64,000 nt of DNA from Ectothiorhodospira shaposhnikovii (lineage in GTDB: Bacteria > Pseudomonadota > Gammaproteobacteria > Ectothiorhodospirales > Ectothiorhodospiraceae), in NCBI RefSeq assembly GCF_022227765.1, contig NZ_JAJMLZ010000002.1, forward strand, positions 124,001 to 188,000, read 5' to 3'. Every line of letters begins with the position of its first letter. Within the stretch, counting starts at the first letter, position 1. Positions 30,762 through 38,143 of this stretch are shown one piece after another. Below the pieces are notes generated by a model, which was not told where the DNA came from, did not search any database, and saw only the letters and a list, made by a program, of their open reading frames with translations. Position numbers and translations under genes: made by a program.

Positions 30762-32480
30762 TCAACGGCTGAGTTTGAGACCCACCCGGGCGATCCTGTC
30801 CGCCGCCATCTCCCGCACCACCAGCTCCACCTCGCCGCACTGCAGCCGGTCCCCCACCACCGGCTGGGTGTTCAGGCGATCCAGGATGAATTCCTCCAGG
30901 GTCATGCCCTTGGCGGATTCAGGCAGCTTGAGGCCGTAGATCAGGGACAGATCCTCCACCTTGGCGTAGCCGTTGAGCACGAACTCGCCGAAGAACTTGC
31001 GTTCGGACAGGCGTTCCGGCGCCGAACTGGCCACGAACAGGCGATCCAGCACCTTCAGGTCATCGGGGGGGGCCAGCAGGTAGAGGTAATCCCCCGCCCG
31101 CAGGTCCAGCATGTCCAGGGTTTCCAGGATGACCTTGTCGCGGACATGGGCCACCACCCGCACGCTGCGCGGCAGGGTGAAGCTGGTCCATTTTTCCCGG
31201 ACCACCGGGGTATTCTCCGCCAGCCGGTAAGCCACCAGTTCCAGCTCCTGTTGACCGGGGATATCCAACTCCACCCGCTGCACCATATGGGTGGTGGGCG
31301 GCACTTCCAGCCGCAGCCAGCGGGCCACCGGCGTGATGGTCCAGCCCTGGACCATCAACGAAATGATGACCACGAAGAAGACGATGTTGAACAGCATCCC
31401 CGCCGCCTCGATCCCCGCCAGCATCGGGAACAGGGCCAGGATGATGGGCACGGCCCCCCGCAGGCCCACCCAGCCGACGAAGACCTGCTCCCGCCAGGGA
31501 AAGTTGAAGGGCAGCAGACACAGCCACACCGCCAGGGGCCGGGCCACCAGGATCAGCACGGCGGCGATCAGCAGGGCATCCACGGCCACGGGCATCAGCT
31601 CCGAGGGTGTCACCAATAGCCCCAGCATCAGGAACATGCCGATCTGGGCCAGGCTGGCGATCCCGTCGTGGAAACGGTTCACGTACTGGGCGGCCTGCAT
31701 GGGGCGGTTCCCCACCACCAGGCCCGCCAGATAGATGGCCAAAAACCCGCTGCCCTGCAGCACCGAGGCCAGGCCGAAGATGGACAGTCCTCCGGCCAGG
31801 GCCACCAGGGGATAGAAACCCTGGGAGATCTCCAGCCGGTTGATGAGCCAGACCAGTCCCAGGCCGCCGAGGATGCCCACCAGGGCGCCCAGCCCCATCT
31901 GGCGAATGAATTCCCACAACACGGTGAGCCCCATGTTGCCGTGGCCGCCCACCAGCAGTTCGATGAGCACGATGGTGAGAAAGATGGCCATGGGGTCGTT
32001 GGAGCCGGACTCGATCTCCAGGGTGGAGCCCACGCGCTGCTTCAGCTCAAGCCCCCGGGAATGGAGCAGGGAAAAGACGGCGGCGGCATCGGTGGAACCG
32101 ACGATGGCCCCCAGCAGGAAGCCCAGCATCCAGTTGATCTCCAGCCACCAGGCGGCGAAGGCGCCGGTGATGCCGGCGGTGATGATCACGCCGATGGTGG
32201 CCAACCCCAGGGCCGGGCGCAGCCCCACCCGGAAGCTGTCGATGGGCGTGCGCATGCCGCCGTCGAAGAGAATGATGGCCAGGGCCAGGCTGCCGAACAG
32301 GTGGGCCATCTGGATATCTTCGAACTCGATCCCGCCCGGACCCTGCTCCCCCAGGAGCATCCCGATGAACAGGAACACCAGCAGCAGGGGGACTCCCAGG
32401 CGTCGCGTGATGACGCTGGAGAGGACGCTGCCCAACAGGATGAGGCTGCCGAAGAAGATGATTTGGTTAGTGAGGTCCAT
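30762..32480 (-). CDS. nhaP2: K+/H+ antiporter, NhaP2/CvrA type
   Basis: The 572-residue protein has about 12-13 membrane helices, with the CPA1 antiporter blocks FLFIGMLLGEQGPGG, IILFDGGMRT and GSTDAAAVFSLL. They are followed by a cytosolic RCK_C/TrkA_C-type domain (PQSARV-like LPRSVRVVAHVRDKV and DYLYLLAPPDDLKVLDRLF) and a CorC/HlyC-like tail (AESAKGMTLEEFILDRL, VGDRLQCGEVELVVREMA). That is the NhaP2/CvrA architecture. It exchanges cytoplasmic K+ or Na+ for H+ and helps survival at high pH or high K+. Another ATG lies 4 nt upstream, out of frame. Confidence 0.9.
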   Translation of the reverse strand: MDLTNQIIFFGSLILLGSVLSSVITRRLGVPLLLVFLFIGMLLGEQGPGGIEFEDIQMAHLFGSLALAIILFDGGMRTPIDSFRVGLRPALGLATIGVIITAGITGAFAAWWLEINWMLGFLLGAIVGSTDAAAVFSLLHSRGLELKQRVGSTLEIESGSNDPMAIFLTIVLIELLVGGHGNMGLTVLWEFIRQMGLGALVGILGGLGLVWLINRLEISQGFYPLVALAGGLSIFGLASVLQGSGFLAIYLAGLVVGNRPMQAAQYVNRFHDGIASLAQIGMFLMLGLLVTPSELMPVAVDALLIAAVLILVARPLAVWLCLLPFNFPWREQVFVGWVGLRGAVPIILALFPMLAGIEAAGMLFNIVFFVVIISLMVQGWTITPVARWLRLEVPPTTHMVQRVELDIPGQQELELVAYRLAENTPVVREKWTSFTLPRSVRVVAHVRDKVILETLDMLDLRAGDYLYLLAPPDDLKVLDRLFVASSAPERLSERKFFGEFVLNGYAKVEDLSLIYGLKLPESAKGMTLEEFILDRLNTQPVVGDRLQCGEVELVVREMAADRIARVGLKLSR

Positions 32481-32553: not shown

Positions 32554-32616
32554 AAAAAAAAAGGGCCGGATATCCGGCCCCAAGCGTGCGAGAAGAGGAG
32601 AAATGCGACACACGCC
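32554..32616 (-). ncRNA. Candidate Fur-repressed small RNA with anti-Shine-Dalgarno loop
   Basis: Downstream of a Fur-box promoter, a short transcript of about 60 nt can be read on the minus strand. It starts near GGCGUGUG (32616). AGGCGUGUG pairs with CGCACGCUU (32582-32590), using two G-U pairs. This leaves an 18-nt loop holding CUCCUCUUCU (32591-32600), the complement of a ribosome-binding site. A terminator follows at once. No reading frame fits. The class is like RyhB/PrrF only in control logic; the sequence resembles none I know. It lies between copA and nhaP2. Confidence 0.55.
32563..32581 (-). terminator. Rho-independent terminator after copA and the small RNA
   Basis: GGGCCGG-ATAT-CCGGCCC is a perfect 7-bp stem on the minus strand, preceded by a further G and followed by nine T residues (32554-32562). 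It would end the copA mRNA and the candidate small RNA and separates both from nhaP2. Confidence 0.85.
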
Positions 32617-32620
32617 TTAA

Positions 32621-32648
32621 ATAATAATCTTTCTCATTATCATGTCAA
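32621..32648 (-). promoter_or_regulatory. Sigma-70 promoter overlapped by a Fur box
   Basis: On the minus strand a consensus -35 TTGACA (32643-32648), a 16-bp spacer and the -10 TATTAT (32621-32626) form a strong promoter. The spacer and -10 are covered by GATAATGAGAAAGATTATT (32623-32641), which matches 15 of 19 positions of the E. coli Fur box. Repression by iron-loaded Fur and induction in iron starvation are expected. It lies just after the copA stop. Confidence 0.75.
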
Positions 32649-32663
32649 CCGATTTTTGGAAAT

Positions 32664-35138
32664 TTATTCCGCCGGGGCAAAGCGCTTGAGTCGCAGCGCA
32701 TTGGTCAGCACCGAGACCGACGACAGGGACATGGCCGCCGCCGCAAAGACCGGCGACAGCAACAGCCCAAAGAACGGGTAGAGCACGCCGGCCGCCACCG
32801 GCAACAGGGTGGCGTTGTAGGCAAAGGCCCAGAACAGGTTCTGCTTGATATTGCGGATGGTGGCCCGGGATAAGGCGATGGCATGGGCCACCTGGCGCAG
32901 ATCGTCGGACATCAGCACCACCCCGGCCGATTCCATGGCCACGTCCGTACCGGAACCGATGGCCAGCCCCACGTCCGCCGCCGCCAGGGCCGGCGCATCA
33001 TTGATGCCGTCGCCGACGAAGGCCACCTTGTCCCCGGAGGCCCGCAGACGCTGCACCGCGTCCACCTTGCCCTCCGGCAGCACCTGGGCCACCACCTCGT
33101 CAATGCCCAGCTGCCGGGCCACCGCCCGGGCCGTGCGCTCATCGTCGCCGGTGATCATCACCACCTTGAGTCCCAGGGACTTGAGACGGGCCACGGCCGC
33201 GGCCGACGACGGCTTGGGCGGGTCGGAGATCCCCAGCAGGGCCGCCGGTCGGTGATCCACCGCCACCAGCACCGGGGTACTCCCCTGCCCCGCCAGCCTT
33301 GCCACGGCTTCCTGGGCGTTTCCCAGGTCAACGCCCGCTTCGGCCAGGAAACGGGGCGAACCGATGATCAACGCATGACCGTCCACCCGGCCCTGAAGTC
33401 CGCGTCCGGTCAGGGACTCGAATCGCTCCACCTCAGGCAGGGTCAGCCCCCGCTCCCGGGCACCACGCACCACCGCCTGGGCCAGGGGGTGTTCCGAGCG
33501 GGACTCCAGGGCCGCCGCCAGGGTCAGGACCCGGGCCTCGTCCCAGTCCTCCAGCACCGTGATCCCGGTCAGTTCGGGCCGCCCCCGGGTCAGGGTGCCG
33601 GTCTTGTCCAGGGCCACCACCTGGACATCCCGCAGGGACTGCAGGGCATCACCGCCCCGGAACAGCACCCCCATCTCCGCCCCCTTTCCGGTACCCACCA
33701 TGATCGAGGTGGGGGTGGCCAGCCCCATGGCGCAGGGGCAGGCGATGATGAGGACCGCCACCGCATTCACCAGGGCCAGGGTGAGTGCCGGCGCGGGACC
33801 GAAGAAGAACCAGACCAGGAACGTGACCAGGGCGATCCCCATCACCGCCGGGACGAAATACCGGGTCACCTGGTCCACCAGATTCTGGATCGGGAGCCGG
33901 GCGGCCTGGGCGGACTCCACCATGCGAATGATCTGGGCCAGCACGGTGTCCGAACCCACCCGCTGCGCCTTCAGGGTCATGGCGCCCTGGCCGTTGATGG
34001 TGCCGCCCACCAGGGCGGCACCGACCGGCTTGTCCACCGGTACCGGTTCGCCGGTGATCATGGACTCATCCACCCAGGACCGGCCTTCCTCCACCACCCC
34101 GTCCACCGGGATGCGCTCCCCCGGCCGCACCTGAACCCGGTCACCGGGCAGGACCTGATCCACGTCCACCTCGGTCCAGTCGCCGTCGCGCCAAACCCGG
34201 GCGGTGCGGGGACGCAGGCCCATGAGCGTGCGGATGGCCTCGGACGTGGCGCCCTTGGCGCGGGCTTCCAGATACCGCCCCAACAGCACTAAAGTGATGA
34301 TCACCGCGGAGGCCTCGTAGTAGACGTGCACCGACTCCGCCGGCAGGATCCCGGGCAGGAAAGTGGCCACCACGGAATAGCCATAGGCGGCGGAGGTCCC
34401 CAGCATGACCAGGGAGTTCATGTCCGGCGCACCCCGGATCAGGGCCGGGCCGCCCTGGCGATAGAACCGTAGCCCCGGGCCGAACTGCACCCCGGTGGCC
34501 AGCAGGAAGAACAGCAGATACACGGTCTGGGTACCCAGCGCCCCATGCACCATGTGATGAAAGGCGGGGAAGACATGCCCCCCCATGTCCAGCACCAGAA
34601 TCGGCAGGGTCAGGGCGGCCGCCAGGATCAGGGCGCGGCGCAACCGGGACAGCGTCTGCTTGCGCTCGATCCGCTCCCGGTCTTCCCGGTCCGGCCCGGC
34701 CTCGTGGACCCGGCTCTCGTAGCCGGCTTCGGTGATGCGCCGGGCCAGTTCCGCGGCGGAGAGGGCACCGGCGGGGATTCGCACCCGTGCCTGGCCGGTG
34801 GCCAGGTTGACCCTGGCCTCCAGTACGCCCGGGGTCCGCTCCAGCAGGGTCTGCACCCGGCTGCTGCAGGCGGCGCAGCTCATCCCGGAGACATCCAGGA
34901 TCAGGGTATCTTCGGCCACGTCATAACCGGCCTCGCGGACGGCGTGGACCAGGGCGACGACATCGGGCGTGGTCGAGGTGGTGACGGCGGCCTTTTCAGT
35001 GGCCAGGTTGACGCTGACGGTATCGACGCCCGGAAGGGGTTTCAGGGCATCTTCCACCCGCGTGACGCAGGCGGCACAGCCCATGCCGGTAATGGGCAGG
35101 GTCAGTGTGCGGGAAGGGTCATGACTGGAACGGGACAT
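32664..35138 (-). CDS. copA: Copper-exporting P1B-type ATPase
   Basis: The 824-residue protein has two N-terminal heavy-metal-binding domains ([12 protein letters not shown] and [12 protein letters not shown], each with CxxC), then eight predicted membrane helices with the CPC ion motif in [14 protein letters not shown]. The phosphorylation site is DKTGTLTRG, the HP motif is SEHPLAQAV and the hinge is [16 protein letters not shown]. This is the Cu(I) exporter type CopA/CtpA. It pumps Cu+ from cytosol to periplasm. The nearby envelope thiol and TolC genes (38.9-44.3 kb) may belong to the same copper response, but no CueR-type operator was recognised. Confidence 0.92.
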
Positions 35139-38089: not shown

Positions 38090-38143
38090 TTAGCACTCCC
38101 CCTTGGTGAGTGCCAATAATAGGGGCGGACTTCCGGATGTCAA
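38090..38143 (-). promoter_or_regulatory. groESL promoter with CIRCE element
   Basis: TTAGCACTC (38090-38098), a 9-nt spacer and GAGTGCCAA (38108-38116) form a CIRCE operator with one arm mismatch against TTAGCACTC-N9-GAGTGCTAA, so HrcA repression is expected. On the minus strand TTGACA (38138-38143), 16 bp and TATTAT (38116-38121) form the sigma-70 promoter directly upstream. CTTGACA and CCCCTATT there also resemble a heat-shock sigma-32 promoter. Confidence 0.85.

Follow-up and report, generated by a model that had tools for sequence, protein, structure and literature searches.

In the genus Ectothiorhodospira, a locus between a copA-like and an nhaP2-like gene is, judged from its conservation, a real and genus-restricted small RNA (sRNA) gene, whose product probably acts in trans as a Fur-repressed, iron-sparing sRNA blocking the translation of HiPIP. 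Its predicted pairing stands out by its concentration on this one protein family, through the motifs GCGAGA and AGGAGAA in the HiPIP leaders. The class of action is a known one, the RNA lies outside every known sequence family tested and it would have a new target. We know of no Fur-repressed iron-sparing sRNA described in anoxygenic phototrophs, and a literature search found no paper joining HiPIP, sRNA and iron. Should HiPIP prove to be the target, the reaction centre's soluble electron donor would come under post-transcriptional control by iron supply, and silencing of HiPIP may make the cells switch to a heme carrier under iron scarcity.

Proposed mechanism

In the presence of iron, Fe-Fur would occupy the box lying over the promoter spacer and the -10, and transcription would be blocked. 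When iron is short, an RNA of 60-66 nt would accumulate, whose exposed C/U loop and adjoining UCUCGC would pair with a two-part site in the HiPIP leader, in which AGGAGAA covers the ribosome-binding site and GCGAGA precedes it. The duplex would stop translation of this [4Fe-4S] carrier, donor to the photosynthetic reaction centre, and iron would be spared. Secondary targets may include further Fe-S genes that have strong ribosome sites, with nuoA as the first candidate. From the gene, its box and the statistical complementarity we infer Fur binding, expression, duplex formation and repression. A more ambitious formulation, to which we give slightly less than even credence, holds that this new sRNA family ties photosynthetic electron flow in purple sulfur bacteria to the iron status of the cell by directly silencing most HiPIP isozymes through a duplex at GCGAGA and the ribosome site, as an independently evolved anoxygenic counterpart of IsaR1.

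Organization of the sRNA gene

The window, i.e. the whole stretch of 64,000 nucleotides of the E. shaposhnikovii genome that was analysed, contains the features collected in Table 1. The initial annotation had announced a minus-strand promoter TTGACA-16 bp-TATTAT, a 15/19 Fur box across its spacer and -10, and a 60-nt transcript with an 18-nt loop hairpin and a terminator with nine T. All were found, the transcript and its two structures if the RNA ends at the T-run; the letters of the box were confirmed, and they suggest Fur control.

Table 1. Features of the sRNA locus in the window
Feature	Coordinates	Strand	Basis and characteristics
Predicted sRNA	32554..32614	(-)	Start placed ~7 nt past the -10, end at the T-run; 73-120 bits with models R1/R2 in 9 congeneric genomes
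5' hairpin, AGGCGUGUG-18 nt loop-CGCACGCUU	32582..32617	(-)	Minimum free energy structure
Intrinsic terminator, GGGGCCGGAUAUCCGGCCC + T9	32554..32581	(-)	GC-rich stem; 100% paired across species
Predicted pairing region, UUCUCCUCUUCUCGC (loop and start of 3' stem arm)	32588..32602	(-)	Reverse complement holds GCGAGA + AGGAGAA
Sigma-70-type promoter, TTGACA-16-TATTAT	32621..32648	(-)	Consensus 11/12; both hexamers invariant in 9/9 species
-35 hexamer, TTGACA	32648-32643	(-)	Followed by a 16-nt spacer
-10 hexamer, TATTAT	32626-32621	(-)	
Fur-like box, GATAATGAGAAAGATTATT, over spacer and -10	32623..32641	(-)	19-mer, 15/19 versus consensus
copA-like heavy-metal P-type ATPase gene	32664..35138	(-)	ORF and tblastn; upstream neighbour of the sRNA in 9/9 species
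nhaP2-like cation/proton antiporter gene	30762..32480	(-)	ORF and tblastn; flanks the other end of the sRNA in 9/9 species, inverted in 3

The hairpin and terminator fold of this 60-66 nt RNA was obtained with the molecule ended at the T-run, a different structure being returned when the sequence past the terminator was included. The 5' stem counts 9 bp, with two weak end pairs, and carries the C/U loop UCGCAUUUCUCCUCUUCU. Across species 86% of its cells are paired and the inner 4 pairs are invariant. The outer pairs are lost in several species, so that the exact stem length is not conserved, and no compensatory change was seen in this stem among the species aligned. Compensatory changes affect 4/8 pairs of the terminator. 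The most conserved stretch of the sRNA is UUCUCCUCUUCUCGC together with GUGUGUCG, and the part invariant across species reads UUCUC...CUCUUCUCGCA. A reading of the element as a small protein gene was ruled out, since the species differ by a 2-nt indel in their loops, which breaks any reading frame.

Predicted pairing with HiPIP leaders

In purple sulfur bacteria the reaction centre receives its electrons from HiPIP, of which most Ectothiorhodospiraceae possess 3-4 isozymes (PMC8877833, PMC7889895). Pairing was scored over 1.66 Mb (about half) of the genome holding the window (G000) and 0.8 Mb (about a quarter) of the genome of a second species (G007), and all ranks refer to this sample. It comprised 1353 and 699 gene starts respectively, called by a simple script from ORF length, GC3 bias and SD match, some of them wrong, and each was scored against the loop of its own species. 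A sequence motif first identified the HiPIP genes, and their number in the genome of the window, exactly four, was confirmed with Pfam PF01355.

The first of the 1353 gene starts belongs to a HiPIP gene (AAAGCGAGAUAGAGGAGAAC, -25.1 kcal/mol), and two further HiPIPs are in the top 20. The HiPIPs reach a mean log rank of -4.76; 60 shuffled cores average -1.23 (sd 0.54), and no core among them performed as well. Because HiPIP was singled out only by the scan itself, k-mer and family tests were then added as a safeguard. In a blind k-mer count, GCGAGA was the most HiPIP-specific 6-mer in the 60 nt before the start (4/4 versus 13/1353 genes, p 5e-9) and AGGAGAA the top HiPIP-specific 7-mer (4/4 versus 27/1353, p 1e-7); the sRNA contains the exact complement of each, in the correct order. 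Among the 38 families with at least 3 members, HiPIP alone displayed significant pairing (p ~3e-6, all 4 paralogs), the next family being at 0.02. Each half of the sRNA site gives the HiPIP signal alone, with p 5e-5 for the non-SD half UCUCGC and 7e-4 for the other. With the variant loop of G007, the three HiPIPs of this species fall in the top 2.6, 4.3 and 6.2%.

GCGAGA is found in at least 4 HiPIP paralogs in most species and absent from some HiPIP copies, including all three examined in another species (G009). In the sole congeneric genome without the sRNA, the HiPIP leader is also without GCGAGA. The four HiPIPs are not fully independent, because the genes are paralogous and their leaders resemble one another slightly more than random pairs do (0.62-0.68 versus 0.58, sd 0.04), and part of the HiPIP signal may reflect this shared ancestry of the leaders. 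When the full-length molecules were cofolded, a situation in which the hairpin must melt, 3/4 HiPIPs paired no better than with shuffled loops.

One HiPIP gene of the E. mobilis-type genomes (L218, L223) has GCGAGACCGAGGAGAA ~74 nt upstream of its start, which amounts to the two-part motif displaced well upstream of the ribosome site.

Other candidate targets

The initial annotation expected the loop to block the translation of many AGGAG-type mRNAs. This expectation holds only in part, the generic breadth being unsupported: CUCC is lost in 3/9 species, with CUCUUCUCUUCUC in its place, and the pairing concentrates on HiPIP. Generic anti-SD action was rejected on the absence of any excess of loop complements over a reversed control, the 12-nt loop complement AGAAGAGGAGAA having 8 sites in the genome of the window versus 13 for the control.

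A reading which we consider unlikely retains Fur repression and makes the sRNA broad-acting, its loop masking purine-rich SD sequences, above all those of nuo and Fe-S operons, and attributes the HiPIP signal to inherited similarity of the leaders. It agrees with the C/U-rich character of the loop, kept in all species, with the rank of nuoA, 6th of 1353 in G000 and member of the top-scoring ortholog pair of G000 and G007, and with the presence of NifJ, MiaB, ferredoxin and other Fe-S genes among the high scorers. However, 5 of the 60 shuffled cores place nuoA as high, and the enrichment of Fe-S genes taken broadly is weak (AUC 0.63, p 0.012; p 0.09 in the second species). The specificity for HiPIP, moreover, also comes from the half of the sRNA site that does not match SD sequences, and the distance between GCGAGA and AGGAGAA in the HiPIP leaders varies from 0 to 18 nt. 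Fe-S proteins as a whole were rejected as the target set, their weak enrichment being confounded by SD strength.

Two other ribosome sites complementary to the loop were observed. In a tusA-dsrE-hdr (sulfur oxidation) cluster (G000:C1:216241; L081 ~1501-1530), the ribosome site of tusA reads GACGAGGAGAAA, which complements the sRNA loop at 11/12 positions, and the ortholog of this gene in G007 scores well too. A 12-nt stretch perfectly complementary to the loop, GAAGAGGAGAAA, occupies the ribosome site of a cyclopropane-fatty-acyl synthase-like gene (G000:C1:334314; L082).

Promoter and Fur-like box

The box of the sRNA is the top match to the Fur consensus in the whole 64-kb window. Sites scoring at least 15/19 number six in 1.66 Mb of the genome, the sRNA box included, versus 0, 0 and 1 in shuffled sequences, and another of the six sits before a TonB receptor gene. 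In the other species tested the box scores 13-15/19. Fur-family proteins encoded in the genome of the window are a 163-aa Fur, of canonical length, and a second, 190-aa paralog. We consider the sRNA gene very probably Fur-repressed.

This second Fur-family protein leaves some room for a different regulator, such as the 190-aa paralog itself, to read the box, or for the gene to be unregulated and the RNA to answer another signal, and the fall of the box to 13/19 in the type-C species (G006, G007, G009) points the same way. We judge this improbable, more so than the broad-acting reading, as the box has classic Fur letters and similar sites are present at genes for TonB receptors elsewhere in this genome.

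Elsewhere in the window, both hexamers recur at the same spacing (TTGACA-16-TATTAT) in a promoter-like site at 38116-38143 (-), just upstream of groES/groEL. A 15/19 Fur-like site at G000:C39 ~155203 (stretch L186) precedes a small c-type cytochrome gene by 29 nt, and the TonB receptor gene close by also has a Fur-like site.

Conservation and genomic context

The whole cassette is kept in 9/10 Ectothiorhodospira genomes, with 80-98% identity (BLASTN, 58 genomes), the membership of one genome (G005) in the genus being by database grouping. Outside the genus the same search gave nothing convincing, with two short matches of 25-27 nt (E near 0.005), and the core pattern, run against 84,980 species genomes, matched seven records, all Ectothiorhodospira. 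The element is above chance because the cassette is kept in these 9/10 genomes and compensatory changes occur at 4 terminator pairs.

The initial annotation had tied its proposal to conservation of the stem and loop between copA and nhaP2 in relatives, and conservation at this position, traced by tblastn in 9/9 species, bears it out. Its description of a complete sRNA gene, based on structure, is now reinforced as that of an independent gene by the conserved promoter, the covariation of the terminator and the synteny. The -35, the -10 and their 16-nt spacing are invariant in 9 species and the Fur-like box is conserved, whereas the sequence from the copA stop to TTGACA and that past the terminator diverge. 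It is therefore very unlikely that the element is a copA 3' UTR with its terminator, or a processed fragment, with promoter and Fur-like letters supplied by AT-rich intergenic DNA, even though in 9/9 species it immediately follows copA on that gene's strand, and a strong terminator closes it.

Two covariance-type searches used a model of the transcript alone (R1) and one including the promoter (R2). Matches of R1 outside the genus were rejected as distant homologs, since they reach at most 33 bits and look like ordinary terminators on inspection; R2 found nothing beyond the nine congeneric copies in 47 genomes.

Relation to known iron-responsive sRNAs

An Rfam 15 scan of the window brought no family to its gathering score, with RyhB and other curated sRNAs unmatched, in agreement with the initial statement that no known sequence matches. 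The nearest family is PrrF (RF00444), with 34.6 bits here and 28.5-35 in relatives for a gathering threshold of 90, listed as a sub-threshold match in 6/9 species. The RF00444 model takes in promoter and Fur box and shares UCUCCUC with the Ectothiorhodospira sRNA. Membership in PrrF, AniS or suhB was rejected, the sub-threshold matches resting on promoter, C/U stretch and terminator.

The control logic, likened from the start to that of RyhB and PrrF, is indeed similar, with a Fur-like box over a conserved promoter. PrrF1 and PrrF2 of Pseudomonas also have a Fur box over the promoter, a short RNA with a terminator and a CUCCUC-containing segment; unlike them, the Ectothiorhodospira sRNA is single copy, 60-66 nt long and endowed with another pairing core, and it gives no hint of sdh/sodB core targets. 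RyhB of Enterobacteria shares the Fur-repressed iron-sparing logic, whereas Rfam scans gave no sequence or structural match to it, and its typical targets sodB and sdhC, considered as candidates and set aside, have unremarkable ranks (0.29 and 0.47) and are not strong targets here. To our knowledge, neither synteny nor sequence is common to IsrR or FsrA and the Ectothiorhodospira sRNA.

The anti-SD feature, which the initial annotation set against RyhB/PrrF, has precedents: besides the CUCCUC of PrrF, the Fur-repressed FsrA of Bacillus and IsrR of Staphylococcus have C-rich single-stranded regions that pair with Shine-Dalgarno sequences (PMC9410917). Both hosts are Firmicutes, and IsrR, set apart by its description, is longer and has three C-rich regions (PMC9410917). 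BrrF of Burkholderia is a lineage-restricted PrrF analog whose sequence is unlike other Fur-regulated sRNAs (PMC7377471); it differs from the Ectothiorhodospira sRNA by its position downstream of hemP, the lack of a Fur box of its own and other targets. The cyanobacterial IsaR1 is an iron-stress sRNA lowering iron-rich photosynthetic proteins (PMC7247011). It is likened to the present RNA by function, its host being oxygenic and its targets ferredoxin and cytochrome b6f, versus HiPIP here.

A conserved box on the promoter, an independent gene and above-chance predicted pairing with iron-protein mRNAs (HiPIP) make the sRNA a probable member of the functional class of Fur-repressed iron-sparing sRNAs. 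By analogy, the best reading is that it would work like RyhB, PrrF and IsaR1, with a logic most like that of IsaR1, as a member of no known sequence family tested. Lineage-specific RNAs, unrelated to one another, recur in this Fur-repressed, iron-sparing regulatory slot.

In other families of the class, matches of the R1 model at L043 (1501-1591) and L057 (~1450-1551) display CCCCCUCC loops, GUGUCACAC-type stems and a terminator, and these hairpins are possible unrelated anti-SD sRNAs.
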